Assembly (NCBI GenBank): GCA_009192285.1
Contig: WBVU01000010.1
Location: 990,111-1,054,110 of the forward strand
Reading direction: 5' to 3'
DNA from: Morchella semilibera
Lineage: Eukaryota > Ascomycota > Pezizomycetes > Pezizales > Morchellaceae
DNA length: 64,000 nt
Shown: piece after piece, positions 1,436-64,000 of the stretch
How the letters are laid out: each line of letters starts with the position of its first letter
Position numbering within the stretch: the stretch's first letter is position 1
Notes under the pieces: generated by a model
What the model was told of the DNA's origin: nothing
The model's input: the letters and a program-made list of their open reading frames with translations, nothing else
Databases searched by the model: none
Made by a program: the position numbers and the translations under genes

Positions 1436-4400
1436 TTAATAAGGATTCTCGCCGTAGAATGCCTTATTTCCAACTCCCAAAACCATTAATTCAGAGTGCG
1501 GCGCGTATGAGCTAAAATAAAAGCCCATCATAACAGTAAGATAACTCAAAATCAGAATAGAACCCTGGAGTGTTATGTTAGTAACTTGTTATACAGTCAG
1601 CACTAGAGTGGTGTTTGGCTTGCCTTGAAATAATTGCTCTTCCCTTCGCCGTACATGTACGATAGCAGGAATACGCAAAGAATAACGGTGACCAGATCCC
1701 ATTGTGGGAAGATCAAACTGAAAGTATGGTTGAAGAGTTCTTTCGGATCAAGAGAGATGGCAAAGAATGCGCTGAAAGCGACCAATGCAGGAATCTGCAG
1801 TAGACACACCTGTAATGCATATGCAGAACCAATTTCCATACTGAGCGCGATATTACCGTTCATGGCGAACGAAATAGCGTTCTACAGAACAATGGTTAGC
1901 AAGAGAAAGGAAACTCCAGAGACACGAAACATACCAAGAACTCAGTTGTATTTGGAACAAGCGCAAAGAGCGTAATACCCAGGAACTTCTCATCAATCTC
2001 AAAATTTTCCAATACAACATCGACAGTATCAACCAAAATCTCAGCGATAATGGCGTACAAGACAGTGGCCCCAAGCAGGATGATAGAACTCTTTGCTTTA
2101 CTCCAGTTAGGAGCATCATGTCCGCCCGCAGCATCATGGGGTGCGGTTGGGACACCCTCCTCTACAGTAGGCATAGATACCAAAACAGGTCTAGGCGTTG
2201 CACTAGTCTTTCTTCCACTATGGCGCTGGACATCCTGAACAGCCGCTGTAGCTGCAACAGCTGCCACTTCTGCAACCCCGCGGAATACTTCCTCACGGGT
2301 CAACCCTGAAATGTTGGACGCGTCCTGTGGCCTAGAGTCGCCTATAGAACCATACCCAGGAGCTGAAGTAGATAGCAGTTCATCACTGGCAGATCTGGGT
2401 GGAACCATGTGTAGAGTTTGGCCTGGCCCGCCAGCATCGCCTCGCAAACCAACACTGTTTTGTGTTTGCCCAAGGATACGTTTATATAGCCCAGTGTCCC
2501 TCAAAGAATTAGGATTCCTGACATCAGCAGAGGTTCCCTCATTTCCGCGTGATGATGCACGGACAGTGTCTATAGCTGCATGGCTAAGTTGGGTTTGAGG
2601 CTGAGCTGTAGATGCTGTCCAAATGACAGCAGCATGAGTCCTCAAAGTGAACCACAATCCAATGACGTATGAAATGAAAAGAAAAACTGCGCAAAGGTAT
2701 GTATATGGCTGAACAACATCTCTATAGAAATCATTGTTCGTAGTGGGGGGCGTTTGAGTAAATGAACATCGACGGCATTCCGCTTTGTCTACATGTGGTG
2801 AACATGCACGACAGCTGAGTTCGTACTATTTGGGGAGTCAATATGGGTGTTATGGGTCACAGAAGATTTAGGAGGTACCTACTGTTCCGTAAATTTGGTA
2901 GAAGAGAGTGGGGGCAAATGCACCAATAACAGCAAAAAGCAGCATGGTGGATGTAACACCGGCAGATCTGGCATTGAAACGTTGGGTCTTTCTTTTGATT
3001 GCGCCTGAGCACATACTCAATCCGGGCATGAAAACAACACCGACTAAGATGCTGCCTACAACACTGCCCTCCACCAATCTACCTTTCCCTTCAGTCAATG
3101 CGACACAGTATAGGTAAACTTCGACCACTGTCGAGAAGAACGCGTTGATAGTCGCACCCATCCCCATACTCGACTGAGCGGAGATAGAAGCCACAGCTTG
3201 TCCGATAAAGTACGCCAGTGGGATAACGGAAAACAAAGATAGGGTGAATACTGTGGCGGGTGAGGTCAGGGGATTAATAATTCCAAATGTCCCTCTTAAA
3301 ACGTAGTGGTCGGCAATAACGAAGATCACAATGGTCATAAGGTTAATAAAGAAAATATTGGTCCCATCTATAGTATACTTGTAGTATTTCCAGCCGACAG
3401 CGCGGTAGGTGCAAAGCAAGATGGATGTTGATGGGGTTCCGGGTCTCCTGGTATAGGTATGATCTGAATGGAATGAAAGCGCCAAAGGATGCCGCCGGAG
3501 GTGATCAAACAAGAGAGAGGTAACCTTGGCCATCGGGATAGTGAATACCAACAACCAGCAGATACCCGAAACTAAAATTAATAGAGGCGCTGCTGAATGT
3601 CAGCTTCCGGCTTTTGAAGACAGCAATCAGTAGCGGGAAACGTACCAATGATAAAGTAGAACCAGACGAAGAACAAGACTCTACCAATATTCCACTCGCC
3701 ACGACCAAAGAGTCGCCTTTTCTTCCCACGGTCCGCTGGAGCTCCACTCAAGAGTCCTGTTCTTTCGCCAGTCCCTAGAATCGAATCAACGTCTACCGAA
3801 TCAAGACTCTCCCTCCTTCTCCCGACCAATGTCCTGCTGGGCGGATGAGGCCCAAAGAATGTCCTTCCCTCCTCGATATCACCGGCCTGCCACTGTTCAT
3901 ACTCGCTTATACTTCTTCCTTCGCCCTCGTCTTCCTCCGCATAAGCATCATCTTGCTTAAGTTCCACGAAATGCCCAAAAGGATAAAACAAATATGCAGC
4001 CAGTCCAAGGAGAACCCGGCCGTATTCCCTAGCGCTCAGGGCAAAAAAGAAAATATAACAGGTCGCCGCAGCAACGCAGATTACTAGGGAAAGCCACCAT
4101 CCAAACAGCGCAACCCATAAGATATTTACCAGAAATAAGGCACCCCCGACACGCCCCCCTGGAGCTGAATGAATGTCGCCTTCTGCCGTACGCTGTACCG
4201 AACGATTTTTCTTGTAAAGTGCGGGTTTCCATATCCTAATACCGAACGGATGCGTGACATTTATTGCCTCTTGACGGTCCTGTGAAATGTTAAAATACGG
4301 CGCGAACATAGTACTCACGATCATAACATACTTTCAAGGTAAAAGATTCCACACTCCCGGCATCGCTGGCTTCGTAATCATCTGCCTTGACGGTACCCTC

Positions 4401-5414: not shown

Positions 5415-8322
5415 AGTGCACCAGGAATGTACTATGTGGGTATCTATCTCCAGGAGAGAGCTCACGCAAGATATGGAGATAGAGAGAATGAACTCACGCC
5501 TGAGAAGAAACTAGGGTTTCCTCTTGGCTTGGTATGGCTGGTGTTTTGATTGCTGTGGTTATCGGACGGGCATAGCGAGAGGACAGGGATGACGCGATGC
5601 GACTAAACAGGAAAAAACAAATAAGTTTACCCCCCCCAGAGACGCAATTTCAGCAGTCGACATTTATTCCGGTTGGGCAACAACAGGCTGAGATTGGGTC
5701 AACACCAAAGGGTGGTTTTTTTTGCAGTGTGAGAAGGGAGTGGGTACATGAAGGAATCACAAAGATTGATATTTAGATAGTCTTACTACTACTATAGTGC
5801 ATACATCCCAACTGCTATGTTAATATGGGGAAGGGCGGGAAAACGACGGTTTGAGAAAAAGAAAACCAGGAAAGTTCAAAATAAACCGGGAAAAAAGCAA
5901 CTATCCACCAAGAGGAAAGGAATAGACTGAAGGATCAAAAAGAAAAGGAAGAAAAAAAAGAAAGGGGATAGCGACAAATGAGCGACAGCACAGCACGAGG
6001 TGAATTAAGGAAGATTCCTTGGTCGTTGAGGATATTCACTCTAGAAAAACTTATGTACCTCATGTCTACTCCTTTGGAGTACTTACATGACATAGAACTG
6101 TACCCACATGTAGCTCTCTACTTTGTCTCCCCACGCACACACATGGACGTTGAGGTAGACTCGTACCATGTTGACGTTTATGTACCCTCGATGTACTCTA
6201 CCTAGCAATTTCGCTTTAGATGCTTGTCTAGAGTACAAACAAGAAACCGGTGCAGTTCCATCGTCGGCAAGCTTAACTGTTTACCACTCGCAAGCCAGGG
6301 TTCACTTGCAGCATTTACGTACAGAGGTCCAGCAATGGAATCGCTCGCTCGCCGCGTGATGCGCAGATCCGCGGCTTAGTGCGTACAACTACGCAACTTC
6401 CGCAGCCAAGCAAGAGCCCAGGGTGTCCAACCGAAAACTCACGAACGCCCAAGTCACTGGATGCCCCCGACATCATAAACCAACGACATCCACCATGCGA
6501 GCTCCTCCATTTTTTTTTTCTTTCCTTCAAGATCCAAAGTAACAGTCGTCTTAGGTTCTGGAGAGGGAAAAAAAATTAGATTTCCCTCACGTCCTTGTCC
6601 TCTACCTAGTCCTAGTTCCCTCTCCTCTCTTTTTTTTTTTTTGTGCCCCACTCCTCCAATCCCATATTAACTTCAATGACCATGAACAGAACTGAATAAC
6701 AGACCGACAGACTAAACGGGGCGACTGACAGTCTGCACGAGGTCAAATAATCCCGGATAAGTGGCCGGATAACAATCACGCTGACAATCTTACCTCTTCA
6801 TGCCTGCCAACCCAACCCCAACTCACAAGCCGACCAGGCGACAGGTCAGAATGTTAGATATAAACTGAGGATACTCTATCTAAATAGTTCAAGGAGCACG
6901 GAACAATATGGTCACATTGCAGAATTAGATAACTACATGTAAGTAACTACGACAACCCAGACTGTTTAATGAATTTCTTTGGGGATCGGGGCAAACCCCG
7001 CAGGGTAAAAATAACGGGCAACATCCCCATGACTTTCTCGTTTCAGCCATGGATGCAGAGTAAAACCTTATGTACATACTTACTGTACTTCGTACATACA
7101 TGCGATACATGATCTTCATCTGAACTCTCCTCTAGCACAAGAAAGAAGGAAAGAAGGGGTGAAAAACGAACAAAAAACCACGATCGCAAGTACGATACTA
7201 CTCCCGCATCGGACAAAAACAAAAACATTCGACATGAGTGATGAAATTACTTGACGTCCCCGGGTGCGAGTGCGAGTGCGCGCGCGGTTAGTATCCCCAT
7301 TTTCTTTTTTTATAGCGATCCCCACCAAATGTGTCTCCAGGGTCGGGACACCCCACCGTTGACTGGTTCGGAAGCGATAATCGCCGCTGCCAAGGCTGCC
7401 AATATCAACCTCTACCTTATTTGAGCCTCCCCTTACCTCACCTATTTCAGGGAATAATAAGAGACTTGGCCATCCCAGGGATCATTAAAAAAAAAAAAAA
7501 AAATACGCCTTGCTAAACCCGATCATTGACCCTAATAGTAGAAATGGCCGAAATGGGCTAGAAAGAATCACCTTGCATGTATTCTAGCATCCCAGTATTC
7601 ATAATTCATCACTCGACATTGCACTGCAGGAGGCAAGCTGCAGTGGGGTGGCTATATGAACCCTCGCGTATGTTACATCCTTTCGTCCCATCATGCACGA
7701 AAGGCTACCTGCAGCGTGGAGAACACGTTCCGGGATCCTCCGAGAGTGTCTGGATCGTATGAGCCGCATGTAGAAACCGGGTATGTAGCATCTATGGGGC
7801 GAGAGCGGGCATCAAACCCGCCAATTCGTACAAAGATATGTGCTGCTTCCTGGAATCGGCTCTCGCTGTGACGGGTGAAGGAGATTTAGGGGTTTATGGT
7901 GTATCTTCGGGGCTAGATTATAGACCATATGACCGCGTATGTCACCCACATAGGTACAAATAGTAGCTATATAGCCGACGGATAGGGCGATAATTAATAG
8001 GAGGACAGGCTCTCTAGGGGAGGTAGCGAAAGGTTACATTAAAGTAAAATGACAATAGATAAATTATTTTTCGGAGATTTGCGCTTTTGGGGCGCGGCGG
8101 ATATGAAGAGCCGAGCGGTCTGTTGTGCTTAAGTCTTGGATTCTGCGTTTTGGCTTTAAACTTTAATTAGCGTGCTTCATCTATCACTCGAAATATTCAC
8201 GGAATATCACTCGGAGTAATCCACATTACCTAATCCAGCAGCCTCGTCTCATCTCCAAACACGTACTTGAGCCGTACCCACCACCACACTCATGATCTAT
8301 TATGGAGGTAACCTTGCCTTAT
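5415..8322. other. Gene-poor intergenic region
   Basis: No gene recognised. The first few hundred bases probably hold the promoter and leader of the VNX1-like gene (minus). The rest has scattered short open frames without family resemblance, A/T homopolymers (about 6508-6518, 6630-6643, 7488-7502), a GAGTGC/GCGCG-rich stretch near 7261-7290 and one TACATGTA palindrome at 6934. Confidence 0.5.
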
Positions 8323-8449
8323 TAGAGGCTTTTAGTCGGTTGCAATTTTCATTATTTGCACATACAAAAATGCGCCAAGATGCACCCACATCTGATAAAT
8401 TTGTGCAAATAATGAAAGTTGCAATTGCGTAACTGACTAAAAGCCTCTA
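8323..8449. mobile_element. MITE-like inverted-repeat element, 127 bp
   Basis: The arms are near-perfect inverted repeats of about 40 nt: the left begins TAGAGGCTTTTAGTCGG and continues to a tract reading cattatttgcaca; the right ends CTGACTAAAAGCCTCTA. A short unpaired centre of about 40 nt separates them. The TA at each end fits a Tc1/mariner-type TA target duplication. No coding capacity, so it would be non-autonomous. Confidence 0.8.
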
Positions 8450-11051
8450 TCCTACGACTTTCTGTCTCCACTTTGTTAGCGGTGGGGATAACCCTACCCT
8501 AGGATACAGAAGATTTCTTTGGTCTTCTCTTTATCCGATGTTTTTTCAGGGCCTGAAGAAGTCTTTCTCATTTCTCTACTTAGGTGCAGAGCTGGGATAA
8601 AGAAGTCATAAGAAATGAGCTACCCCCGTCACCGCTAAGGAACCGCTTTTGAAAGTGCTAATATCCGTGTGATTGCCTTTTTCACTTAGTGTTGATTTAG
8701 CTGTGCGTATCCCGATGCAGCCCTTGGCCAATCTATATACGTGGATCGGAAACTGACCCGCCTTGTTGGCGCCCGTCCCCTAATACATGCGTATAAGTCG
8801 ATACGCTTCACCAAGGATGATATTCACCAAGGGTGATATGATATTCGGGAAAGATGGGGGCCAGGTGGTTCTAATGGTTGTGACAGGGGAGTTGGGAGGG
8901 TTAGATAAGTATGACAAAGAACGCTAATGGGTAGACGATACGCCCGCGGTATTTTACATCTCCTGTTGATGAAATATCTCTAGGTGGCAAGATATTACAG
9001 CACGGGGAGTGTCTGGACTGGCATGAATTCAGTCATAATGGCTCTAGGCTTAGCATGTATGGGTGTCATGCATGGTTCACCAGTCAAGTCTACGTAGTAT
9101 TTAGAGCTCCATATACGATAATAAACCTAGTATAACCAATATTTTCTCCGCCCCGTATGAGCAGAATACTTTCTTTAGAGCAGACTCTCCTCATTTTACA
9201 TTAACAGATAAGGACTTAGGACGACACGTAAGGGCAGCATTCGGGGAAGAAGCACCTATAGGGTAATTATGAGTCTTTCAATATCACGCGGCCTCGAGTA
9301 TCGTAGCATCTATTGGGTCTACCTAGGTCGGGGGGTGGGGGGAGAGAAAAGAGGGTAGTCAATTGGAGAGGCAGGGTTTGCGGGGCTCTATGGGTGCCAT
9401 CATTAGTAGAGTCAACAGGTCTATTATCTCACGAACCCCAAGCAACAATGGGAGCAGTTGCGGGTTATGCCGGGCTTCGAGCTACTATCTTCAGGATGCT
9501 CAGGCTTTGATTGTTATCCATACCTTAAGGTGGTGGAGTGGCCATGGTTGGATACGTCGCTAACCTAGACTACCACAAGATGTATTGGCATGAAAGAAAT
9601 CCTTCGCTGTATAGCCACAGGAAAACTTCCACATGGGGAGCCAACTGCAGAGGCTAGACCCCAACAGTGCACCGTCCGCAACCCCCAAGGCCAATTGCCA
9701 AAGTTCCCCCAGCCTTTCCGGCTGTGGGACTTTCTTGGTATGCAATACCCTTCCCTGTCACAGAAAACTAGGCCTACCGCAGCTTTTCGGGGGGGGGGGA
9801 TATTGGGGGGAAGGGTGTATTTGAACAGTAAACCTCCGCCAAGACTCTGGGGAGCTGCATTCTGGGTGGATGGAGAAACCCTATTTCATTGGTGCGTTGG
9901 TAGACGCTTCGGCTGACCGGGGGTGGAATGACCGGGGGTAGGAGAGTTTTATAGATGGCGGTTAGAATAAGGCATTATCGAGAGAGGGTAGGAGTTTTGG
10001 GCGCATCATAAGTCATCACTCGGGGTTCTCCGCCTTTTCTCCCCACCTTTTTTTTTTGGGGGGGGGGGGGGGGTTGAGATCGTGCCAGCTAGGTCACCCA
10101 CAAGTTACTTTAGAGTTTTTTTTCTCTCTCTTTTGGGTACGGTAGATGTCTAGGTGCCATGTACTTCTGAGCCGCTCACCATGATAAAAAGAGGTGAGAC
10201 CTTTCGAGATTCGGGCGCCTTAACGCTCTAAGAGTAGAATGTGTAGTATGCTCTAAGAATTATGTGAAGTTCTAGCTCAGCTAATTACCTTGTGAATATT
10301 CGGAGTATTGGATTAAGTGCAGACATTAACCCGTAAGTAACAATACTGGAAACCCTAAAGTGCCTACACACGTAAAAAAAATAGATATACGTGACCCGAT
10401 AATCATATTATATTGATCCTTAAAGAGAAAAAAAAAGTTAGTCCACCAGGGGCAGGATCAACCCGCCCACACACACCACCCGTTCACCTGCCGACTTACC
10501 TAATAAAGCCGCAACCACCCGGCCCCGTTCCCCCATTAAATTGGAAGCCTTTACGAGTGATGTTTGGTGATCAAGATAAGAAGTCGCTCGGCAAACAACA
10601 CTGGGTCACCCAACCGGGGGAATGATGATTCATTACCGGACATGAACCCTTTTGCAAGGCCGGGAGCTCAGAATGCAAGTTTGACTATAGGCTTGGCTTT
10701 ACATGTATGTCCCCTGCACATATTCCCGCTGACAGTCGGGGTGATGGATGAGAGCTGTATCTTGGGCTAGTAGTCTCTGAGTTTTGATTAGGTAGACAGT
10801 TGGGATTCTTGGCCGCTTGTCTTGACAGGTGCATGATTTCCACAAGGAGATTGGGTAGCTGGGAATATGGGATGAACTCTGGGGAGATCTTCGTCGAGAA
10901 GGCTTCGAGAAGAGAAAGTAAGTTTCACGATAACATGAAGGCACTACTAATACCCTGCAATTGTATCTGCAATTACCAGTCATTACTAGTTATTACCTCC
11001 GCCACTTCACCTCTCGCTAATCTACACGTTCCACTTCTATCTTTTCATGCT
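8450..11051. other. Gene-poor intergenic region
   Basis: No gene recognised. It contains a long G-run near 10058-10073, poly-A tracts, one TACATGTA at 10700, and at 10391-10447 a copy of a dispersed repeat also seen at 17007 and 35481. Open frames such as those at 9590 and 10800 carry homopolymers or shadow the next gene. Confidence 0.45.
10391..10447. repeat. Dispersed repeat, copy A
   Basis: It reads GTGACCCGATAATC, then ATTATATTGATCCTTAAAG, an A-run and GTTAGTCC. The same order of blocks occurs at 35481-35541 (GACCCAATAGTT, ATTATATTGG, CCTTAAAGG, AAAAAGTTAGTCC) and, in shorter form, at 17007-17040. Probably remnants of one mobile element; class unknown. Confidence 0.6.
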
Positions 11052-16600: not shown

Positions 16601-16637
<37 letters not shown>

Positions 16638-16660: not shown

Positions 16661-19496
16661 ATAGGAACGTATGCTTTAGTGAATGGAGAGGGCTTTTGGG
16701 GGCGGGGTTTGAAGGGAAAGGATGTGGGGGGCTAACTGGCTGGGTCCAGTGGCGTTCATAGTATCATTATTATTACTTATTGTCATAGCATTAATGGCTA
16801 CTTCTTGTACACATATTTTTATATCTTTATCCCTAGGAACCTGGAGAAAAGAAAACTTGTCCCTAGATTATTCTGCTCTACTGGGTGCTCTGTTTGTGAC
16901 CGTGGACCAAAACCTCTTTCTCTCTAGAATTAATTAAAGACACGCCTACTAGATCTAGATTGCAGTATGTACAGCCTGGTAGAATTATTGCAAAAATGGG
17001 TCTTGCGTGACCCGGTAGTCGCCCTATTAGCCCTTAAAGGAGTTTTTTGCTGCAAGCATGGACTAAGAACATCATCATAAGGGTCATGTACCCAGGGTGT
17101 CGGAAAGTGATGCACATTCGGTGGTTTCATAGCCACACGGGAGTCAATTTCCACACTGGGCTATTTCAAGGTAGATATGAGTGTGCAGATACTCTTCATT
17201 AAATTACGCTTATATGGTAGAGAGGTTCTGAATATTTTTATATCGTGATAAAGTATTTGGGCGTTTTCTAGTTACATAAAATGTACATCACTTTTCGACA
17301 CCCTGTGTACACCTGTTGTTGTTGTGGAGGTGTTATGCAAATCAGGTTAAAACCGCAAAGAAGGTTACCACACCGTGCGTTGAGAGGCTGTGGTCTAGTG
17401 GTTGTGGAGGGATGGCTTTTGCAATAGCTCTACCAGGCTCTATAGGCACTAAGGCAGACCATCACTCGCCCCCCAGAGAAGGAGAGGGGGGGGTGGGGGG
17501 TCAAAGCACTACATACATGTATCTCCAACGAGCTGCGGCGGGAGCGGGATGTCGAGTCATGGTTTATCACTCGGCCGTCGCCTCACCAGGCGAACCCCTC
17601 GCTTTTTTTGTTTTTTGTTTAATTCATTACATGTATGAAAAAATCCCTCGCGTTGATTACATGTACTTACGTATTACTAGATGGGTATGGACACTATGGC
17701 TTCTAGACTAGATGTACGTGAAGAAGGAAGTCCTCTGGCTGGAGATGGCGGGGTTGGGGGGTGCATTTGTGTGTGTGTTTGTGCCGGGTGGAAAATAAGC
17801 TTTCTATCCCCTCCCGTGCCCTGCCCCACCACCAGCAGGGCCAGCCCTAACTGTGACTTACTTAGCAAAGCACTCAGCACGGGTCTGCGGCTTGGCCCAC
17901 GGGAGAGATTTTTCTCCCGCCATCTGCACCTCCAATAACGAACGCTCTACCTCCGTCGCCGCCCCACCGTCATGAAGGCTCCAACATCAGTGGGTCTGCG
18001 CCTTGGTCTACTCTAGACACCGTCCTCGGCTTTTGGGTAAGGGCACTTAGTGTGACGGGCTGATCTCTGGGCGTGGCCGAGGAATCGGGGCTTTTGGTTT
18101 CTTTGGGCTTTGGGGCATTATGCCGCTTGGGTGATTCCGGGCTGGTGTGTAGAACGTGGGCGTAATCTGGGGGCTATAGAGGGCTTTGTGGGGTGGGTGG
18201 GTGGTGGGGGTACTAGCTGCCTGGGTGGGGTTGCGTTTTTGCTTGCTGGATGGCGCCCGTGGGTTATGGTTTTCGGGGAGACTTGGGTGTGGGTTTGGCT
18301 CTGTCTGTGTGGTTTACTTTTTCCGTTGGGGGCTGGGGGGCTTTGGGGTCTTGAAGCTTGGGAGATTGCTTTCTCTGGGGGGTTTTTGGGTGGGCGGGGG
18401 TTATGGGGCCGTGGGGAATGTTCGTGGGATGATCTTGCGCTGTACCATAGAGCTAGCCTGGGAGATTGGGCAGTTCTCTATTGAAAGAACCAACTGAGAC
18501 AGAGGTATGGAAATTTTTATATATATCTAAGACGACATCGACTAGGGCCTGAGAGGGCAGTGGGGAAATTGGGCTGAGACAAGGAATGTATGGCCCTCTG
18601 GGAGACTGTGCCGGAGCCGTTATTCACTTTGGGGCTTTAAGTTTCCGCGGCTGGTGGCTATCGCTGTCCGTAAGGATCACGCAGAGGAGTATTTGCCATG
18701 ACTTGGCTAGGGGTATATTGTCCCACGAAGAGCTCGGGCATGGAGATAGAGAGATAGAGCGGAGAGAAGGCTGCCTTGTTATTTCTACCCTTTCTTACTG
18801 CCTCACCCGCCCCATGAATCAATGCACAAAATGCACACTTCCAGTTTGTCCGGTGCGCTTGGGGTCCTGATAGCGGGGGGTTATCCGCTAAGTTTTGTGG
18901 GAAAGTTCTACATATCCGTATAGTCGTTTTTTGCGAGCCCGGGTATGGTCGCTGGTGCGAGCTTTGCCAGTCTCCGCCAAAGCAGGTTACTGTGGCTCAG
19001 TGGTGTGATGTAGCCCAGCTACTATTAGGGTGATAGCCTACGGGGTTGAGGAAGCAAGGGTCGAGGGGGGAAACTTAGCATGTACCTCCGGCGGAGGTCT
19101 AGAGCTGGCTGTGAGATATCGGGGCTGGTTTGGCTGTCTGTATGACGTTACATACAAAGGGACAAGGCACATCGGGGGTTCAGGAGAGACGCCATAGTAG
19201 TCTCAGGGGAGAGAAAGCTTAAACGGAGGGTCGGGATAAGGTCGCTTGAGCAAACCCTCACTATCATGTGTAGATGGCGGGTCCCGCTTTACCTATGGGG
19301 CGAAGGCGCTTTAGTCTCTCGCTGTGTCGTGCCTGTTTCTGTGGGTTGGATGCTATAAGCTTGAGTTTGGTCTGTCTCCGTCGGGTTCACTAAGGGGCAT
19401 TGGGGATAGATGGTCTTGGGGATATATACATAGAGTTGGTGCACACGCATGAGAGAATAGGGAGTGAAGTCATAGTAGCATCCCTACCACGCCAGG
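16661..19496. other. Gene desert
   Basis: No gene recognised. It is G/T-rich on the plus strand in 18.1-18.5 kb, where overlapping frames rich in Gly and Trp are composition artefacts. Contains TACATGTA palindromes at 17514, 17628 and 17658, one TATCACTCGG at 17565, and at 17007-17040 a short copy of the dispersed repeat seen at 10391 and 35481. Confidence 0.45.
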
Positions 19497-22990: not shown

Positions 22991-23931
22991 ATATAACGCC
23001 CCTCCCAACAACAGTACGCCATCCGACCAACACAGGCAGCACCAAACCACTGGTGGATTTTGGGGGCGTGCTAGGCCGTACGTTCCCCCCCGACATGCAT
23101 TTCAATCCGTGGGGAGCAGCCTCTACGGACACCTTGACTTCAATTCTGGGGCGCTGGGAATTGGTGGCATGTACCTACAGCTAGCTAAGGCTCGGCGCGC
23201 GCAACGGTGCTTGTAGAGACCGCCTAGGTTTAATTGTCATTTGCCATGTACTGTATCTACTAGAGAAACGCCCAGGAGCGTAGAGAAACATAAAGGTTAT
23301 ATAGCGCCAAGACCGAGCCGTCGTAGCTAGGTCGTTGCATCACCCCCGCCCGGGGTACATACATGTACGTAGGAGGTCCGCCCCATCACAGAATATCACT
23401 CGGCGTGGAAATGATCGCAATTGCATGTGGTAGCTCTGATCTGTAACCTCCAGCTGAGTAAGTACATGTAAGTAGTTACACCGTCCCACCGGGAGCGGTG
23501 CACTGTAATACCCCCCCCCCCTTTTTTTTTCTTTCTTTTCTCTGATCACGCAAACATCGCCTCTGCCCTGCCCTGGGTGGTAGTGGTGGCGGGGGGGGGT
23601 GGAGGAATATCAAACCAAACCAAGCCTGTGTTGTCTGGTATAATTTTTGGGGCATTTCGAGACCCCATCCGCCCCCCCCCCCCGCCCCCAATCTTACATT
23701 TTATGTAGAAGTACAGCGGTGCAGAGCACTTATATATATATATACAACCAAGTATGATACAAAAAAAACAAAACAAAAAAAGAACTCTAGGAATATATAT
23801 GATATCTGGTATTTATTTACTTGTTAAGAAAAGAGACCGGAGTCAGCTAGCTAATGGTAGAGAGAAGGAAGGGAGGAGGAGGAGGAGGGGGGGGGGGGGG
23901 GGAATAAAGGGGAAACAAAATAGACTACCGT
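22991..23931. other. Intergenic region downstream of the helicase gene
   Basis: No gene recognised. Contains TACATGTA at 23360 and 23463, TATCACTCGG at 23394, homopolymer tracts (C at about 23511-23520, T at 23522-23531, C at 23673-23684), a TA repeat near 23732, and a GGA/G-rich stretch at about 23871-23901 just beyond the helicase stop codon. Confidence 0.5.
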
Positions 23932-35473: not shown

Positions 35474-35480
35474 AGATCTT

Positions 35481-45187: not shown

Positions 45188-48100
45188 TTTGAAGAGTATT
45201 GTTGTTTGTTGCGGCGGTAGTTGTGGTAGTTTATCAAAAGCGGCTTGAAGCGATTGGAAGTAAAAAACGTCCGGCGAATGCTTTTTGTTTGAAAAAGAAT
45301 GAAGATATCAAGATATCAAAGAAAGAATGACTGACTTGCAGTTCGATAGTAGAAGGAGTAGAGTACTGGCTGGCTGGCTGGCTGGCTGGTGGTAGAGTCG
45401 AGGGGATAGAAGGAAAGAGGGTTCTTATATCATAGTAGGAAGGGAAAAAAAAAGAAGACATGCTGATAGGTCCAATAGTATATGCATACCTGCGCGGTCC
45501 TCTCAAGTGCAGTTTAGCGCCCCTGAAATCTAGATTTTAAGAAACATAAAGTTTTGCCTCCTGCATATCAGCGGTTACAAGACATTGGGCAGGTTATCTG
45601 ATCACGAAAGCCCCAACCATAGGGATCATTACCGACATGGACGGTGCCAGGATGCCAGCTAGCCAGCCAAACTCGGAAGGATGTCAACCAGCTGAGTGAC
45701 TGAAATGCGGGTGCCACAGAAAAAGTGAAAAAAATCCCCCGAGGCCAGACATTCCCTGCTGACGCAGTCAACGTGCAACCTTCTTGGCCTTTCCCTTCTC
45801 TGGGTTATCGCACTCTCCAAGTGCACGTCCCCCATCCATGAAATCTCCGGGAGCTGAGATTGATTTTTTTTTCCCTTTGCTCAGTAATTTCGCAAGGATG
45901 GGATCACTGGCTTCGAGGTTTGATGGTCGGCGCCTATCCACCCCAAATTTGACTAACTGACTTTCCTACTCCTAGAACATAGTAGACCATTCCGAGTAAA
46001 ATTCAAGCTTAAAGAATAGGACATCATCTCCATACGGGACGGGAAGTCTAACCCTGGCTATGGCTATGTGATGTGATTAAGCGGTACCTGAATTATCCTG
46101 CACTTGGACGGCGGCGGCCACCACCCTGGAAAATCCGCAGCCTGTTATTTGTTAGCGGGGCCAATGACGATGCAGGAACAGAGGCTCTTGACATATGCAC
46201 TCAAAGGAGCTTCTCGCTTCCTGAAACGGATTGCCTTTTTCGTGAGTCTTTTCGCCCAAAAGGGTTCTCTGTGAAAAGGCGCAAAAAAAGTAAGCCTGCA
46301 TGCATACATCTCGTAATCCATAAAGAATTCAGGTACCGTTTCACCTACCCTCTACGAATAGGTAGAGAATGCATGCTTTCTTTCCCGACCCGTCATACTG
46401 GCACCTACATACTGTAAGTGCTCTAGAGTAAATTTCCTCTTCTCCCGAATTACCGAAACCAAAGGCGTTTAATCCTGGTGTTTCAAAACCCCCTGGAGCT
46501 TCCTTGTATTCTATGTACCTACATAGGTACATAGGTACATAGGTACATAAGTCGATACGAGCGCGCGGCCACGTTAATAATCCAGCCCTATCTACTCGCC
46601 CTCGGCAGCATCCGACGACCATGGGAGAAGAAGGAGGAAGTCAGATCCGCCGGGCTTTCTGCAGGAAAGATGGACTGTGGTGGCGATATGTTAGGTGGGA
46701 GGGCTTTAGATCTAAAAGTTGATCATACCCGCGCGCGCGAAGAGTTGCTGCTGATTTCTTCTTGCGTGATGCACCTGCAACCAGATAAAAAAAAATCTAG
46801 CTCGGCCTAGCTGCTTTTTTGGTCGGCTGAGACATGCAGTTTTTCCTCTTTTGTGAAGAGATGGGCAGAAATGTTGTGCCGCGTGGAATTGGAGTGAGTA
46901 GGTAGAGTTGGGGAGTGCTTTTCTGCTGCCGTACCACACTGGGGTGAAGGCTTCCAGATCAGGAAGATGGTCGCTACTAATCAACAAGAGTAGGAAGTCT
47001 CTGGGCGGCACCGTACGTAGTCAGAATAAACTTAGGCTCTTGGACGTTGGTACAGAGTTATCAGTGATTAACTCTATTCACTCGTCAGTTTTCGGCTTCC
47101 GGCAGGGCAGACAGGACCTCAGGGACCAACTACATGAATGTACTGACCCGGCAATACCTTCCTCCCACCCAGCCAGCTGGTGAATCACGGTGCGTCACTC
47201 GATCTACATGCAACAAGGTCAGTTAGTTGCGTGCAAACGAAACAGTTCTTAAACCATCTGGCTGATTGGCGGGGTTGGTATGTATGTACCTACATACTTC
47301 TGTCGACAGTGGGGGAATTCAAGCGAGCGAGCTGCCGCCCAGGGCCTTATTTTTCTCCACGGATCCTTTTCGTTACCAGTGGATGGAATCCAAATCCGGG
47401 ATATTGTAGGTACATTCATAGCTACATGTAGCTATGAATGCCAGTGAAACATATATCATGTAGCATTAAGTATAAGTATAAAGTGCAAGAAGCCCAATGG
47501 CATTTGACACGCCCACACGACTCACTCCCAATTCAATTCAATTCAATTCTGTGTGACGTGGTGCTCTGTCTGTCGCAAGTATCGCAGGGGGTGATTGGTG
47601 GGGGGACGAAATTAGAAAGGGTTCAGATTATTATAATAAACCTCCCGATGATCTGGGACAGCCACGTATCCCTTCTTAATAAAGAGCCACATGGCGGTTA
47701 TCCTGGTTGTGATTTGGTGGAGCAGAAGAGCAGCATGAGTTTAAATGTTGCAGGATTAACGTTTGTTACCGCTTTGGGAAGGGGGAATGGATTTGAATAA
47801 GGTTATCCCCAGGACCAGGGCGAGTCAGTCTGCGGTCGAGTATGTAACCACATCTTAATCTATCAAATTGTTTCCCACCCCACCCCACCATGCCCTCTCC
47901 CCCAAGATGGGGCATGCATGCCTTCGTTCCTGGTTGTATGTTGGGTAGGTATTCCAGTACTCTACTTAGAGTACCATGTGCTTAGATCTAGAGTGTCCCT
48001 GCATGCATCTCAGTAGAGTAGATAGATACACACGGGAAGAACAATCAAGACCTCACCAATGTTAATCCACATCAATCCAATTCAGGTATCCTCAACGGAC

Positions 48101-51100
48101 ACATCACGAAGGTGGGGCGTTCAATTGAGCATAACAACACCAACCGCACCAATGACTTATATCCAGGTCCGAATTGAGAACCTGTTCTCTCAGCCCCAGC
48201 TTCAAGAAGTGTTACTACTGGTGGGGGGTAATGTCTATGAAACCCCCATACGGACTTCTTATTCTTATCTCATCCCGCGCGCGACAACGTATGTAGATAC
48301 ACGTACCTACATACATAACATCATCATCGCCAGGCCAGTCAGTTCCTCGCTCGCCTGCTCAGCCAAATATCTTCCACATAGCTCTCGTTACCAGACCTTG
48401 GATCCAACCTGCAGGGAGCGTTCACCTAGAGTAGGAAGAGTAAGCACCAAGAAAAGTACTTCCCCGGCGGCGGCGGGTGCAGGTACTGTAGTCCGCACGG
48501 CTACCCAACCAGTGAGAGGGAGGCATCGATCGCATCACAGCATCAGCACGCCCCCGCCGTCAAAAACAACACACGGCCAACCGCTACGTGGAGAGTATCT
48601 AAATATGTAGGTACGCCCACATGTGCATCAATCTTCTACGGAGCCGAGCAGCGCGTTCCTGGCGAGCGGGCGTATGAGCAGCCTACACGTCGGTCGGACG
48701 GGAAGAAAAGCTGCACCTCATCGATATACCACCGCGCGGTGTGGACTGAGGAGCTGGAGTGCACATGGACGGGCCGTCTACTCCTCAGCTTTGGAGTTCG
48801 ATTGGGGTATCATCTTGAGATGTCTTTCCCATTATGGGTGATCTATTGCGGTGGATTGGGGATTTGGAAAAAGAGTTACTATTTGGGCTTGTTACACTTC
48901 CGGGACAGTGAAGAAACCTTTTTGCGCGCGGAAAGGAAAGCTGGGGATGGGTCTTAGAAACTGAATTGGCCAGCGCCTTGCCATCTGTCAGTCGCGATGA
49001 ACACCCCGTTGGAGGAGGAAGAAGGTTATCAGCAGATACTAGCCAGCTCTGGACCTTGAAAGCCCTCACTTATATCAGTTGATCTTAAGTGATCATTTGC
49101 TTTTGACACTCAACTCCCGCTATCGAAGTTGCAATGTCTTTCGGGCGCGGTCAAACGTGGCCTTCAGTACTGCCTGGATTGACTACTTGTCTTGACAGCG
49201 AAAATCATCCTACATAGAGAAGAAACCTTTAGGCATTCGTTCATACCCGACATTGTTCCTCTAGCTCTCTTCCCTATTCTCACCATCACCCCAGAATTTT
49301 ATCCCTCCACTCTCTCTACTACAACCTCTTAATTCGCACTCTGCATGCCATGACTACATGTATCTCTCCTTCATACCACAAACACCGTCTACGATCTCAA
49401 TAACAGCAGTGAGGAGGTTGCGCGCAAAAAGAGTTTTCAGAAAGCATAACATGTATCTGGGCTGCCATTCCTTCACAAGATATCACTCACCAATTATGAA
49501 GGAGTCTCTAGTATGATTCCGGGATATCGTGGGGTAACGGTTCCCGAACCCCACACCACTAACCGAGGATTTGCCTGCCATTTTTGACGGCTATCTGCTG
49601 CGGTCTCGCGGGCCGCTCCTGCTTTGTGGGGTCGAGTGAGAGATGTTGTCTGCTGGTGTTGGCTGGCCATGGGTTGAGTCGGGCTTGAGCTGAGCTGAGC
49701 TGAGCTGAGCTGACCTCGAGTTACAAAGAGGAACAGCTGGATCAGTGTCCGGAGATGTCCTCATGGTTGTTGCATGTGCTTGAGATGGCCGTACGGGGGC
49801 GACTAGCCCCGGGGCAAAGCACATTACCTAGCAATTTGCTTTGGGCTTACACGGGATGCAGGGCCCCGGGAAGAAGGAATTGCACTTAGACAGGCCCTGA
49901 CTCGGGAGCTTACTGTATAACTGGCTCGGCTACAACTGTGGAGATTACGGTGGAATTAAATGCATGTATTTTAGGTTCTGCCGGTGTTACTGGCTGTGTA
50001 GATGGCCCGTGTAGTCAGTCAATCAGTCGGGCGTGTCCGTAATCTTCTCTACTATCCGGAACTTACATGTAAGATCATGGGCCAATGGTAGTAATATTAC
50101 ACGTAGAGTACAACGGTGCTGGTGGCCACGAATAAGACCCAACCATCGACTGTAACATAGCACCCTGCACCTATAGAATCTGGCAAGCTTGCGGTTGGCC
50201 GCTGGGGTGCCTTATATAATTATGGCAATATGTCAAAGGAGTGACTGATTGGGTCAATTAACTTGGCATCGCAATTAGAGAGCTTAAGCGCCGGGTGTCG
50301 TCTAGTTTATGGCCACTGACTGGCCCTCTGTGTGGTGCTGGGCCCTCTGCCAGTTGTATTACGAGCTTGGGTCGACTTCTACCGTTAGTATGGGTCGAGA
50401 GCGGGAGGTAAATAGCTGATACCGGAAATAAAAATCCCCACATGTGCTCCTCTCGTTTCTCACGCCCAATCGTTGTCAACACGCAGCATGGCGAGTGACA
50501 TTTTATGAACCCGAATTACTCGGTCGATCAAGTAGTATCGTCTTGGAGGGTGGGGTGCTTCTGCCTCTGGCACTGATGATCTAGGGGTATATAGCGAAAG
50601 GCCCAAACAAAGTAGTTGAAGCACCGCAGCAGCAGCTCGGAGGTATAAGTAGGACCTTTGCTTTGAAATCACCAGGGTTTAATTTCTGAGCGGCATCGGC
50701 AATCATGAGGGTTCAACCCCTAATATAATAGGGACCCGAAGGCTCTAGCGGGTTGACGGGGCGGTAGGTGTTTTTCTTGCGCCGGGAAGTAAGTGTCCGT
50801 TATCAAGGCGTTTGTGCAGCGCCGGTCTGGCCGTGGGTGTCCCGTCTCGGTCCCTCCTCTGTCGGTCTTTGTGTGCCCCCGGCCCGTTCCTCCCGCTTCA
50901 GGGTCGGTTCACATACCAAGACGACTAACGACTCGCGTTGCGTGCGGTGTCGCCTTGTCTCAGGCCCGGGTGTGGCGGGTGGTTTTGCGGGGGATCTGGA
51001 CATGGGGTCGGTTTGTTGGTCAATCGCACCAGAAACGCTCTCTCCCCATACATATGCTTAGATGTATGCTTCACTTGGCGCACAGCCACTCACTCGGCCT

Positions 51101-52910: not shown

Positions 52911-52931
52911 TTCTGGGCCTAATAGGTTAGC

Positions 52932-53462: not shown

Positions 53463-53532
53463 CCAGCCGCATCTCCTGCCTCTGATGGGGGTCCTGTCCC
53501 ACTTGCCGCGTATCGTCGCAGGATTTGCAAAG

Positions 53533-55244: not shown

Positions 55245-56339
55245 GTGTGCTTGGCGCTGGAAAAAAAATAATGTTGATTATGACGTATATATAAGTTGAA
55301 TGTGGCTCGCCTTAGGCCATTGCTAAGATCTTGGACCCGTTAATTGCACGCGTCCTCATCAATCGGGAGGGTACTCCTTGTACTCTATGATAGGTTGTCT
55401 ATATATCTTTTTAGGAGTCTTGAGTACCAGTAGTGATTAGTTGCCATTATGAATTGCGGTGAGGAATGGGGTTTACTGGCTATGCGTGGCATTGGAGGTC
55501 GTGATAATGTTTGTCTCTTGTTGTTTTAACTTCCGGCAATGCTATCTGCTACTGCATGGCGCGGGGAGTAGGGCTGCAAACTATATGTGGCCGATTATAC
55601 CTTATACCTTATACCGGGGAGGAAAATATTACCCTGCCTCCGGAGAGTGGGAGGAAAGGGTTTGTCATTGCCTTCGGGCTGCATACATATGAAGTATCAA
55701 TACCTTATACCACCACCTGTGCCCGTTCCGCAGGACTAGATCGTGGTTAAAGCCTGGGGTAGTGCTGAGGTACACATGTGTTTATACTCCGTCACCATTT
55801 TCATAACTTCTATCAGATTACATATACAGTCCAATCGCCCTATAAGAGCTAGAGTACCTTTTATAAGGGTACATGTAGTCGCTTTATAAGAGTATGGGTT
55901 CTCGGGCTAAATAGCCTTTGTACACACAAACTCTCCCTGTATACAAGGGTACATGCCCTGTAAGGCTACGACTTCGCGCCACTTTTGTACCCTTATAGGG
56001 CGATTCGAACAGTACTATTTGTCCTTAGCGTAATTTGTGCTCGGGAATTTGTTGTTTCATTAAAAAAACACCTGGTCATGAAACCTAATTGTGAAGGAGG
56101 GAAGCAGGGTTGTGGGCCGATTGAAAATAGCAGACTCTTAAGTCATTGAATGTATTCATAGAAACTACAAACCATAGATACCCAGTTCCGAAAAGGAACT
56201 CTAAGATATTGTAACAACCAAGTACTCCTTTCCTTTTGCACCGTATAATATATATACATTGTTTAACAAAAATTGAAATAAAAGAAAAATAGACATGCAT
56301 AACATATGTACTCCCAAGAAAACTCCGCTCAAACAATCA
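55245..56339. other. Intergenic region between convergent genes
   Basis: Between the alpha-galactosidase (+) and the membrane-protein gene (-). Contains the inverted-repeat element at 55833-56005 and a TACATGTA at 55870 inside it. No gene recognised. Confidence 0.5.
55833..56005. mobile_element. MITE-like inverted-repeat element, about 173 bp
   Basis: AATCGCCCTATAAG at 55833-55846 and its reverse complement CTTATAGGGCGATT at 55992-56005. Inside each arm the motif recurs in part (tataagggtaca on the left, tgtaccctta on the right). Non-coding; boundaries and target duplication are uncertain. Confidence 0.55.
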
Positions 56340-58682: not shown

Positions 58683-61600
58683 GCCGAAGATTGAAATCGA
58701 AAAAAGATTTTGGGAAGGGCGAAGATGTGGAGACTTTATGAAGGTATTTTCATGGTCTGTTGGAAGGATCTGCGCTTATGACGGTGGGAGGGATTGGTAT
58801 AAATACGTGTGTAGCTGTACGGCACAAACCCAGCATGGGTGGATGGGTGTAGGCCTTGGTAATAAGCACTTGACTTACATGTCGGGCGATGATAAACCAC
58901 CTCAGCAACGACACATATTACTTGTGCTTCTACTCCATAGGTGGACTTACTTGGAATTTTGTGATTTACCTACATGTGTCCCGGTTTTGTCCTATATCTC
59001 GATTACTGGACCATTTTCATATAACATGGTATCAAGAAATTCCCTGTTTAATGAAAAGGTTCAACAGACATGTCAAGTGCTATTCTTTTTAAAGCACCCC
59101 AATTGCAACGTTATTGTAGCGGGCATGTACGGGGAGGAGGAGGAGGAGGAGTAAAAATTAGTGCACCGCCGCCTTGGCTTCAATCAGATCTGGTAAGGTG
59201 TGGTAGAGCTGAGATTGCTGCTAAACACAAGCCAAAGTTGTCTGTCCTGTCTTGGCAGGTGTTGGATAATCTGTTTACGCCGCAAAAAAGGTCAAATGGG
59301 TAATTGTAGAGCAGAACATTATCTCGTGCATGTTCAGCCCCCGACAGGGTTTTATTTATGGCAGCTCGTACGAAAACCAAGTTAATTACCTAACTCGATT
59401 CGGCCGGAGGCTCTGCTAGGAATTACATGTAATTAAAGGTTGGAATGTTACTAGTCTAGGAGACCGAGATACATGTAATCGACCCTGTTAAAATAATATG
59501 TATATCCTTTTGAGACGGATCGGCAGGAGCCTTTCACAACTCTAGACAGCTGTGTGATCTACCCGCTGCTTAACCGTTATCAAGTACATGTACGTACCCA
59601 TTGCCGAAAAACTTGCACTTTGTGTAGCCCTGTGCTTCCTCGCCCCAAAGGCCGTAGGCTCATCAAATGATCGATATTGTATACAGATGTGCTTTTACGA
59701 TTGCGATACCCGTGGCCGCCATATTAGGCTACGTACCTGAAGACTTGTTTTTTTCTTTAACGCCAATGTATGGACCTCGGTTGTGATACACTTTGGATAC
59801 TCGTACCTATGTACCTACTCCAGACCCTTGGATCACCTCAGGCTATTAAGTCCCTTTAATCGTGTTACCTTGAGTGATAGTTAAGAATTTAATTCTACGA
59901 TGCATGTTAACCTTGTAGAAAAATTAAGATTCTATCTTATCCGCACAGCTTGAAACGCCAAAAGCTTAATCTTACACGTGGTGCTGCGCCCCAGACTGAC
60001 TGTCAAATTTCGGAAACAATTCCCTTCAGGTACTCTGACGTGACAGAGATCAATGTTCTACAATATAAAGTAGAGTGCAGTTAAATGTAGGATAGAGAGC
60101 ACCTACAGTGCGCCCGGGCAGTGTAAAGTTACTTTACCTTTCTTGCCTTCAGCCGTCTTTTCCTGCCTCTTCCAGACATAAGATGTATGGGTTTGTGCCA
60201 TAAGCCCATTAACCCATCCGGGACTTCTCCCAAGCTGCGGTTGGAACCAAACCCAGGACTAAGTCCTAGCTTCATCAATTACTAAGCTTGGTGCAGTTGA
60301 GTACATGTAAGCACCAGCCAAACCAACTCACAGACCATGTATCTTTAGGGGTAGGGCTGAAGTTAAGTTGCTCTCATCTCCTTAGCATGGGATGCGATTG
60401 ATCATTCGACCGCTAAATGGTCCTATTGGTAACCAGCAACACCCGGAGGTTGTGGCCAGATCGGAGCAATGAGAGTACGTCCCCTTGCACGGGAATAAAT
60501 CTCCTGGCTGGGTCCTAGGAGCACAAGCACCGAACAAAAGCTGTTACCCACTCTGCCAGAGGGATGAATGTCAACTGTCGGGGTACAGTAGAAGTGTATG
60601 TGTGGCCTACCGATCAAATCGGAAATCAAGTGCTGACTACATGTAGCTATATGCACGATACAGATAGCTCAGCCTCTATTAAGCACTTCGCTAATTCGAA
60701 AGCTGTGGCGATTCGGGCTCCGCCTTGGCAACCATTTCACTCTGCTAAGCCTGAACCTTAAATGGGTACATAGCAAGTGTTCGGTCGCCGGAACCAGGAA
60801 ATCTTTTGTCTGGGGTATTCTTCTACAACCCTCCAGAAGGCCAAACTTGTGGTCAGTGTGATACAGCAGGATGCCCATGAACTGCTGCACAGTATCTATA
60901 CATGTACCTATTCAAAGGTTAGGTATAGTTCCCTGAAGGTAGGGTATATAGCGGGGCATCGATATTTGGATCATAATTAGAACACCGGGAAGGAAGCTCT
61001 TAATGTTTACAATTAGGACACTAAAAACACACGTACCCGATTGTGCGCCTCGTGGGGCTCACTTACTTCACTTTCGAAAAACTTGCATCGGAAAGTGCCC
61101 ATCTGACGAAATGGTGGGTTATTACTATGGATGAACTGACGTACACCGATTACTCCACACATCTCTTCACCAAGACCCATCGGAGACGTGGTACTCTCTA
61201 TTGGCCCGACAGAACCGACATTCCACGCCAAGTGTATAAGCACACGCTTGGAATCATGTAGGGTAAGCAGGGCTTCCTGATGAGACATGACTGGAAGGCC
61301 TAAAGTAAGGCGGGAAAATACCTGCTCTGCACTCAATTATCTTTGGAAACTTTTAACTGGGTCCACCTATTATTTACTGCTGTCGCTCAATCACAACTTA
61401 TCACTCTAAACAGTTTGCCACAGCTATATATACATGAGGGTTTGTAGACTTGAGCAGTACTCAAAAGTGCAGATAGTAGCCCTAGCGGACCGAACATTTC
61501 CCCAAGTCATTCAACCCCAGTTTTTATTTATGTTCCCAGCGGGGCCGCGAATCCTTTGAGTCTCAAGAGTTCCATCGGAATTAAGGTCTTGTCTACATAT

Positions 61601-64000
61601 TCACATTGTTGGCTACAAAACACAAACCGCCAGGCTATAACGGTATTTCTCTCGGCATCACTAGGATTTTAGATCGGACCCTTCAAGGCATTCACAAAGC
61701 TTATAAAACCAACGTCATCGGCCACACGTATGGTTTTATTGGAAGAGAGATTGTGATTCAGCGAAAATCGCACGCGGGGGATAATCCTGGGTTCGATCGT
61801 TTTTATGACATCTACACCCATGTTTTGTCGGTGGGACCGGCAAGAGTCATCCTGGGGACGTGATAGCTGGTGGCAGGGATGATCTTTCTATCTTTTCGGC
61901 GTTTTGTTCCCGGATCTGCTTATCTGCCCTACGTCGTGAGATGTTAGTGATCAATATCAAAGAAGAAGGAAAAGTAAAAAAAAACAGGTAAAATGGGAAT
62001 TATTTCCACATTAGCATTTAGATAATTCTATGAGCATCTATATGAGGTTCTCTAGATCTATAGGCAAAGATGTCTCTGATAACTGAAGATCACAGTCGTC
62101 GAGTTTCAAAACAGGGTCGAGTCTTGTTGGTGCTCAAGTGATGGTCTATGTCGGATGGGAATTTTGTGTTAAAAGTTTGATGCGTTTATCCGCCCGCCCT
62201 TTAGCTAAATCCCGACTGGTTAGTAAATCTTGACCTGCGAAAGTGTGGCAATTCGTTGCTGGTTCACCGCCGCTCACTCGACTTGGCCTTGGGCCTGCCT
62301 GTGGAAAGTATCCTATGACCTAGATGAGCCGGAAAGAAAGACGAGCGAAGATATAGGGGCAGTAGCAAGCTCTAGAGCTCATTAGGCGGGCGCTCAACAT
62401 TCCAGGGAGCTGTTTCTCAAGCCGAGTGATATTGCATGACCCATAAATCTCCACCTTGCAATGTAATGTAGTTTAGCTTATAGAGGGGTTCGAGAAACGA
62501 GTCCTCTCTAGTCGAGCTTCACTATCATTGTAAAGAGATTTGTGGCGATAATAGTCGAAATCTGGTCAGGCAGTTTCCCCCCGAATGATTGATGTGTTGT
62601 AATTGATTGAGTAGTGCTGTAGCCTTCCGGCCATGGAACTTGGTAGCTGGATAAAACCAGTAAGCTTTTGCGTGTCTATTCAAGTAGAGGTATATAGCCG
62701 CTGAATTTCGCCGACCTTCAACAAGGACTGGCAAAACAGGCATGTGGCGGTCTATGCCGCGCTTTAGCTACACCTATATGCACAGTAATCCAATATTCAT
62801 GTAGATCAGTGGCCGTATGGACTTATGAGTACCACTTTTTCCCTACATATAGATACCTTGGACATAAGTCGTCTGGCGTCATGCATGAGAGTATAACTAA
62901 CTATGGTTTAACTGTTTTGTTCAGTTCTTGGGCTAGTACTGTTTAGTATATCCGGTTTGAACCAAATGGTAGCCACATTAATATAATATAATTATATAAA
63001 TGAGGCCATGCGGTCGAAATTACTCTCCCTTTCGAGGACAGGAGTAGGACCTGGGTTGATCACCAGGTTATGTCAAGCGGACGAGTTACAGCACTGCATG
63101 TGCTTCTAGCTCTAACGCTCTCTGTGCTTCGGACCAAACTAGCCCGACATATCCTTCCTTGACCATGTGTGCACTGTGCATGCCTTGATATTGCCTTTCT
63201 ACAATGATTACTACTGGTGCAAGGAGGGGCTTCAGTTGTATTCCCGATTGTTTTGGCAACATTCCTGAGAATCCCGAGTGCCAACTGCCCCAGGGTTGTG
63301 TTTTGGTTATGGGGAACCCTGATATTCCTGAACCCTGGACTGTGCCGTCGTCGCTGGGGAGTTGGGATGTCTATGTCGAGTGTATTGTGTTGAAGTGAAC
63401 ATGCCGTGGCGGATGTACGACACGGGACTAGGTCGGATGTAGTCGTAGTCCTTCAGCACTGAGATCAGTTATATACTATTGCGAAGCGTTTTAACATAAC
63501 GCCTCTGAGTGTCCAAACGGTTACTGTGTCGCTACACCATGTGGGTGTTAGGGCATGCAGTCGGAAAGTCCCCTGCCTGAAGCTGGCATTTTCTTCCTGC
63601 TACACGTAGTTATCTTAACCCCTCCTTTTTGATGTGATTTTAGTTTTCGTTTTTGGATGCACAATCGACTAGCACAAAGCCGCATGCGCAACAATAGTCG
63701 TAATATCGTGGTAGAGTGCGATTCTCGAAGCGTAGCTACATGCTCGTAGGGGGGCCAGGGGAGAAGAATTCAACGTGGAAGTATAAGTTGGCCTACTACT
63801 GTAGTTGGGCAACGGAAGTGGAAAGGTTAGTTTTATACTAACAGGCAGGTATTATATGGTGTTAGCACCGGAGGGACTGTCAGCCACATGCCTTAAGGTT
63901 CGGTGCCCTAAATACATGCAGGTACATACATACATGTATTTACCCGTTGGCATCCCCCACGATATCTGCACAGGTGCACTCTTCTCTCCGTTGAATCATG
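58683..64000. other. Gene desert to the end of the window
   Basis: About 5.3 kb with no recognisable gene; the left edge should hold the promoter of the membrane-protein gene. TACATGTA is dense here (59424, 59470, 59585, 60302, 60638, 60899, 63931) and TATCACTCGG occurs at 62422. Open frames at 61043-61261 and 61606-61863 have an ordinary composition but match no family I know and lack neighbouring exons. Confidence 0.45.

Follow-up and report, generated by a model that had tools for sequence, protein, structure and literature searches.

TACATGTA, a palindrome iterated through the genome of Morchella semilibera, as the core of a putative protein-binding site

A palindrome iterated in the window and across the genome

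A 64-kb stretch of the genome of the morel Morchella semilibera (C9:990111-1054110, contig WBVU01000010.1 of assembly GCA_009192285.1), hereafter the window, holds 26 exact copies of the palindromic 8-mer TACATGTA. In 100 dinucleotide-preserving shuffles of the same stretch the word occurs 0.70 times on average and at most 4 times. The copies had been picked out by eye in a first-pass annotation; on recount all 26 of its coordinates proved exact, and the longer GTAAGTACATGTACTTAC that it placed at 37648 is present. Many copies carry a TA two bases outside the core, on both sides in seven, on one side in ten and on neither in nine, as read by eye. All are listed here, with no strand assigned to the motif.

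1652..1659: TACATGTA, in a coding exon of an Na/Ca exchanger-type gene on the minus strand (from Pfam and frame); no TA flank
6930..6945: full TANNTACATGTANNTA, copy 6934
10700..10707: TACATGTA, no TA flank
17510..17521: TANNTACATGTA, copy 17514
17628..17635: TACATGTA, no TA flank
17658..17669: TACATGTANNTA, copy 17658
23356..23371: full 16-bp form, copy 23360
23459..23474: full 16-bp form, copy 23463
32300..32307: TACATGTA, no TA flank, between open reading frames (ORFs) of VIP1 (PPIP5K)
37197..37208: TANNTACATGTA, copy 37201
37442..37453: TACATGTANNTA, copy 37442
37649..37664: full 16-bp form, copy 37653, within GTAAGTACATGTACTTAC
37659..37674: full 16-bp form, copy 37663, ten bases past copy 37653
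39909..39920: TACATGTANNTA, copy 39909
40167..40178: TACATGTANNTA, copy 40167
47413..47440: perfect 28-bp palindrome with the 16-bp form, centred on copy 47423 (arms by eye)
49355..49362: TACATGTA, no TA flank
50064..50071: TACATGTA, no TA flank
55870..55877: TACATGTA, no TA flank
59424..59435: TACATGTANNTA, copy 59424
59470..59477: TACATGTA, no TA flank
59585..59596: TACATGTANNTA, copy 59585
60302..60309: TACATGTA, no TA flank
60638..60649: TACATGTANNTA, copy 60638
60899..60910: TACATGTANNTA, copy 60899
63927..63942: full 16-bp form, copy 63931

The excess extends to the whole genome. Across the 56.76-Mb, 23-contig assembly, TACATGTA occurs 22,206 times, about once per 2.6 kb, whereas the reversed control word ATGTACAT occurs 3,723 times; duplicate-like contig pairs may make these absolute counts too high by about a tenth. 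A second-order background of 3.2 copies per 187.6 kb of sampled sequence would give about 1,000 copies genome-wide, which puts the excess at about 22-fold. The count, taken over the whole genome with coding and non-coding DNA pooled, is the one that the first-pass annotation had suggested, and it bears out the proposal of a highly iterated genome-wide motif. Neither of the findings that the annotation had set against its own proposal turned up: the count is far over expectation, and the copies do not lie within one transposon family.

The duplicate-like contigs are an observation in their own right. C9 and C10 are identical across the 10 kb compared (window 10049-20048 against locus L014, C10:1000001-1010000), and C12/C13 and C21/C22 give matching hits with small offsets and look like near-duplicates. 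Either two almost identical haplotypes or duplicated contigs may be present in the assembly.

The word stands apart from other palindromes of its length. We ranked the 256 possible palindromic 8-mers over a sample of 188 kb that left out L014, the repeat-rich loci L009, L011, L016, L017 and L020, the loci L001-L004, L024 and L025, and that kept the transposon loci L022, L023 and L026-L030. TACATGTA came first by a wide margin, with 77 copies against 3.2 expected; the runners-up were TATATATA (31 against 7.2) and ATATATAT (28 against 8.2). Sixteen 10-kb loci, copy-poor ones included and L014 excluded, together hold 45 copies. The signal is real, strong, specific and genome-wide.

The palindrome is the core of a longer symmetric site

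Flanking bases show that the site exceeds eight bases. We read 78 copies symmetrically, in a sample without L014 and the five repeat-rich loci that kept L001-L004, which had been fetched for holding the motif and so bring a small upward bias. T occupies position -4 in 52% of flanks and A position -3 in 66%, while G at -1 is mildly raised (33% against a background of 23%). Of 156 flanks, 62 have a TA at two bases from the core; elsewhere out to 19 bases the count is 8 to 18, except at distance six, where it peaks again at 26. Per copy, outer TAs are absent in 28, single in 38 and double in 12, and the two sides look mutually independent, which fits two half-sites. Genome-wide, the full 16-bp form TANNTACATGTANNTA accounts for 3,317 of the 22,206 copies (14.9%), compared with 251 of 3,723 (6.7%) for the reversed control. 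This 16-bp form is a new structural feature.

The TA flanks are commonest beside the exact word. Within the sample used for the ranking, 57 of 154 flanks of perfect copies (37%) carry the TA, against 192 of 1,934 (10%) for other TANNNNTA words. With perfect copies masked, the twelve single-mismatch classes together number 119, where second- and third-order backgrounds predict about 77 and a fourth-order background 88; their excess, roughly 30 to 42, is below the perfect-copy excess of about 74. Pooled over these classes, 47 of 237 flanks (20%) carry the TA, a diluted version of the perfect-copy signal. One transition class, TGCATGTA, stands at just 8 against 5.8 expected, and a further mismatch word, TACTTGTA, is raised (15 against 6.5).

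The first-pass annotation had described flanks that extend the palindrome. Longer palindromy is indeed present, but it mostly reflects the shared consensus, a TA two bases out, rather than arms that are complementary site by site. Complementarity past the consensus is near expectation save at distance five (29 against 19.8), and hairpin or cruciform arms are rejected on that ground. The site at 47413-47440 departs from this rule, its palindrome being perfect over 28 bp.

Sampled copies lie mostly in non-coding DNA and cluster loosely

We mapped copies against ORFs, which are exon pieces with introns mixed in and whose adjacent stretches may overlap, so that the location map is a rough one. The 38 high-scoring ORFs cover 42.3 of 174 kb and contain none of 70 copies, where an even spread predicts 17. 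The composition of those 38 ORFs alone, however, predicts 0.48 copies, and near-identical control words are rare there too (8 of 138). The enrichment is therefore a property of non-coding DNA, and the coding gap itself is mostly compositional. The earlier description of the word as almost confined to intergenic DNA holds for this sample as far as the high-scoring ORFs go; as a sign of avoidance it loses most of its weight to composition.

Exon-level checks in the window covered two of the 26 copies, 1652 and 32300. The former was correctly called coding: the frame reads ...FLLSYMYGEGKSNYFK... across it, it lies outside the 38 ORFs, and at least one of the 26 copies is accordingly coding. The latter had been assigned to a VIP1 intron, and its position in an inter-ORF gap, 31929-32680, fits such an assignment.

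Copies also cluster. Genome-wide, 1,133 pairs lie 101-131 bp apart and 1,040 lie 180-210 bp apart, where uniform density predicts about 269 per bin, an excess of about four-fold; the control word gives 34 and 24 pairs in the same bins. A small-sample bump at 146-230 bp, which would have matched nucleosome-length spacing, found no support in these genome-wide counts, and the two bins show no nucleosome-length peak.

Repeat expansion as a source of the word

Words of this composition could arise by mutation alone. Inverted (TACA)(TGTA) units, or TACATG repeats, might spread locally through non-coding DNA by slippage or template switching and produce TACATGTA with no binding protein involved. Several observations lean this way. 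TACA precedes the core in 7 of 78 copies and TGTA follows it in 5 of 78, both above chance; GTACAT repeats exist, for example at C1:1259571-1259592; within 300 bp of a copy the density of GTACAT and GTACGT is two- to three-fold that found farther off; and copies are clustered. The palindromes GTACGTAC and GTAGCTAC exceed expectation four- to five-fold, and ATGTACAT itself, at 3,723, is over chance.

The registers of the repeat are unequal, however. Slippage of TACATG would raise ATGTACAT as much as TACATGTA, yet the former is six times rarer, and a tandem TACATG microsatellite is rejected on this count. The outer TANN units are mostly other than TACA (TACA in 12 of 62), and arm complementarity past the consensus, near expectation save at distance five, also tells against this origin. 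Once sites and simple repeats have been masked, the value for TA pairs is 1.35-1.37 at lag 4 and hardly lower, 1.32, at lag 6; a general period-4 TA texture is likewise rejected. We consider a purely mutational, repeat-born word improbable, though worth keeping in view.

Transposons as a source of the word

Excision of a DNA transposon offers a second route. A Tc1-type element ending in CA...TG and inserted at TA would, on leaving two bases per end, produce TA-CA-TG-TA, which is TACATGTA, and thousands of such footprints might lie scattered in non-coding DNA. The genome has the machinery for this: 69 DDE_3 matches, two CA...TG-ended Tc1-like families with TA duplications, and many candidate TA-duplicating miniature inverted-repeat transposable elements (MITEs). 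A at -3 is common to targets of the CAGCG family (62% of 90 termini) and to TACATGTA flanks, in which the mildly raised G at -1 points the same way. The element in L022 sits in TATG-TA-CCTA, initially a good fit. The word is also sharp, and its excess single-mismatch forms, mostly transitions, look like decay. For the MITE types with GA ends and with TC ends, footprint palindromes are raised only about two-fold (TAGATCTA, 7 against 3.2; TATCGATA, 7 against 2.9).

Target preference speaks against the families tested. The CAGCG family inserts at G-TA-C. In 94% of 90 termini the base at -1 is G, from which one expects about 89% of the family's footprints to take the form GTACATGTAC. The termini were 90 of 100 listed flanks out of 291 hits, with C10, C13 and C22 dropped and a search pattern that missed G at -4. 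GTACATGTAC accounts for 1,486 of the 22,206 copies (6.7%), where base composition predicts 5.5%, and its reversed control numbers 788. The mismatch caps the contribution of the CAGCG family at about 1.4% of copies, and footprints of CAGCG-type Tc1 elements and MITEs are rejected as the main source. The second CA...TG family (L029 and L030, two insertions) has G-TA-C targets as well. For a CC...GG-ended family (L024/L025), the predicted footprint TACCGGTA was seen twice against 2.4 expected. In one MITE family, 20 copies (about 4 kb; 20 of 40 scored copies, mostly divergent) held neither TACATGTA nor, by eye, a CATGTA insertion at TA, where just one or two were expected. TA and TACATGTA alleles were sought between twin contigs, but the 10 kb compared are identical. 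An extinct or other family with different target habits may still be the source; overall, excision footprints of the Tc1 type seem to us an unlikely origin, though not a far-fetched one.

Transposons might instead be drawn to the word. The first-pass annotation had raised a preferred transposon target, and in a small way this is true: in 26 of 38 hits (twin contigs counted) a CAGCG-family terminus lies directly against an unbroken TACATGTA, and the L006 MITE (7842-8066) is inserted in the first TA of a copy. A few dozen cases must be set against 22,206 sites and about 290 termini, however, and targeting cannot create a word. Such insertions are best taken as a side effect, the counts refuting them as the main cause, and we regard it as very improbable that abundance is tied to transposition at a MITE landing site.

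Nor was the word seen in shared repeats. Duplicate loci aside, 20-base flanks differ by eye, which rejects one dispersed repeat as the carrier, and by coordinates no copy was found inside a repeat shared between loci. TACATGTA looks more like a landing site for a DNA-binding protein than like debris of the transposon family tested.

The search also described the elements themselves. A Tc1-like family with CAGCGGTAGG-type ends occurs at L022 (449-2136), L023, L026 and L027/L028, with 291 end-like hits; it has a strict G-TA-C target preference, often with CATG preceding the TA. The full copies at L022 and L023 are 98% alike, with an open frame of 366 aa where DDE_3 matches, and their relatives are about 72% alike. 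A TCCCTTG-ended MITE at L038 (C13:419210-419491) lies a few bases from a TACATGTA. In the window, candidate MITEs with terminal inverted repeats beside TA on both sides lie at 8323-8449, 16970-17442, 17089-17309, 35240-35311 and 52833-53009 and belong to several unrelated families.

Other features of the window

A gene for an AA14-family lytic polysaccharide monooxygenase lies at 44143-44991 on the minus strand (PF22810, E 5.3e-57); with VIP1 and other genes, the introns and the size of the genome, it fits a fungal origin of the DNA. Degenerate tandem repeats occupy 20728-22978, where long stop-free minus-strand frames read ETGDTEIS-like repeats; the stretch is either a gene or a repeat.

The same eight letters in other systems

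In the oomycete Phytophthora, TACATGTA has been described before, as a palindrome abundant in promoters. Expression-based motif searches, independent of the present analysis, found it there as motif-1, which lies upstream of 12,070 genes of Phytophthora (PMC3520976), and as M93, which occurs 4,150 times in P. infestans promoters and for which a link to general growth is suggested (PMC3597505). In these papers the inverted repeat is taken as a hint of a homodimer and no binder is known (PMC3520976, PMC3597505). The identical 8-bp palindrome is thus highly abundant in both lineages. The oomycete word is promoter-described and expression-linked, whereas Morchella copies flank ORFs on both sides and have the 16-bp extension with outer TAs. 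Among the matches listed in the open-access literature, mostly titles and the starts of abstracts, none reports TACATGTA in a fungus, though a published fungal report may exist.

Two further leads come from the same source. PMC3520976 mentions TACATGTA as the excision footprint of C. elegans Tc1, and its authors do not expect motif-1 to be such a footprint. The letters are the same, and CA...TG-ended Tc1-like elements occur in the Morchella genome too; the flank preference of the Morchella family tested nevertheless mismatches the sites, as set out above. The paper also suggests an Irx-like KN homeodomain as the Phytophthora binder, TACATGTA being the preferred 8-mer of Irx (Iroquois) proteins (PMC3520976).

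Morchella offers no counterpart to that binder in our search. An exon-by-exon search for KN homeodomains, which could miss split domains, gave one match (PF05920), and it carries WFINARRR. Irx proteins have WFANARRR; WFINARRR we take to be a recognition helix of MEIS type rather than Irx type. The preferred 8-mer is identical, but the sole KN match is not Irx-like.

The nearest phenomenon in kind is the cyanobacterial highly iterated palindrome 1 (HIP1), GCGATCGC, with which methyltransferases recognising its core are associated (PMC4390886). Both are sharp 8-bp palindromes iterated genome-wide. A HIP1-like word is one palindromic 8-mer far over expectation across a genome, and TACATGTA is such a word. 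HIP1 is prokaryotic and has other letters, whereas the Morchella word is eukaryotic and scarce in coding DNA.

A candidate site for a dimeric DNA-binding protein

Our best reading, put forward tentatively and with somewhat less than even confidence, is that TACATGTA is the site of an abundant, probably dimeric sequence-specific DNA-binding protein. An exact core, outer symmetric TAs and a clustered non-coding spread together resemble the site of a dimeric protein. The genome-wide excess, the diluted TA signal beside single-mismatch words and the independent recovery of the 8-mer in Phytophthora point the same way; the first-pass annotation, too, had counted a protein-binding or chromatin site among its options. 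Under this proposal, which is drawn from sequence, the recognised site would be TANNTACATGTANNTA, about 16 bp long and two-fold symmetric, with TACATGTA as its invariant core. The putative protein would bind TANNTACATGTANNTA, probably as a dimer, with each half reading TGTANNTA and with weaker symmetric contacts two bases outside the short exact core. Its sites would stand singly and loosely clustered in non-coding DNA on both sides of genes. Selection would presumably keep them. About one site per 2.6 kb, on both gene sides, makes a general or architectural factor more likely than a single-pathway switch.

Several observations weigh against a protein-binding site. The homeodomain search left us with no candidate binder. 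Promoter bias is not clear, with 35 copies in 50.5 kb upstream of ORFs and 23 in 47 kb downstream; the first 250 bp beside ORFs hold none upstream and two downstream. Further GT/AC palindromes are several-fold up in the 188-kb sample (GTACGTAC, 8 against 1.5; GTAGCTAC, 9 against 2.0). Excess mismatch words are mainly transitions (TATATGTA, 21 against 9.7; CACATGTA, 17 against 6.3; TACGTGTA, 10 against 3.5), a pattern that fits neutrally decaying copies and weaker binding sites alike. Confinement to non-coding DNA accounts for part of the clustering. Finally, the five repeat-rich loci, which lend the proposal little support, hold one copy in about 41 readable kb, where about 17 are expected; three of them (30 kb) hold one, whereas the sample rate predicts 12.6 (P about 5e-5). 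Two ORF-dense ordinary loci, L010 and L019, are likewise poor, with one copy each, so much of the scarcity may stem from coding-like composition.

The repeat-rich loci differ among themselves. L020 has clear Gypsy-type ORFs, as read by eye, and is the sole such locus of the five; the readable parts of L016 and L017 have 45-47% GC, the remainder being masked N.

A bolder version of the protein-binding reading, which we hold to be rather unlikely, makes the word a eukaryotic counterpart of HIP1: a fungal non-coding genome filled with an exact 16-bp site, at which a putative abundant dimeric protein would mark or organise intergenic chromatin. Were this true, oomycetes would owe their identical core either to an ancient factor common to both lineages or to convergent arrival at one recognition fold. 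Should TACATGTA instead be the footprint of another element, its copies would make up an exceptionally full fossil record of excised DNA transposons. If the word is bound by a protein, its more than 20,000 copies would serve both as bait for a general DNA-binding protein of Morchella and as a ready genome-wide map of that protein's action; the core shared with Phytophthora also allows the idea of a common recognition principle to be tested.

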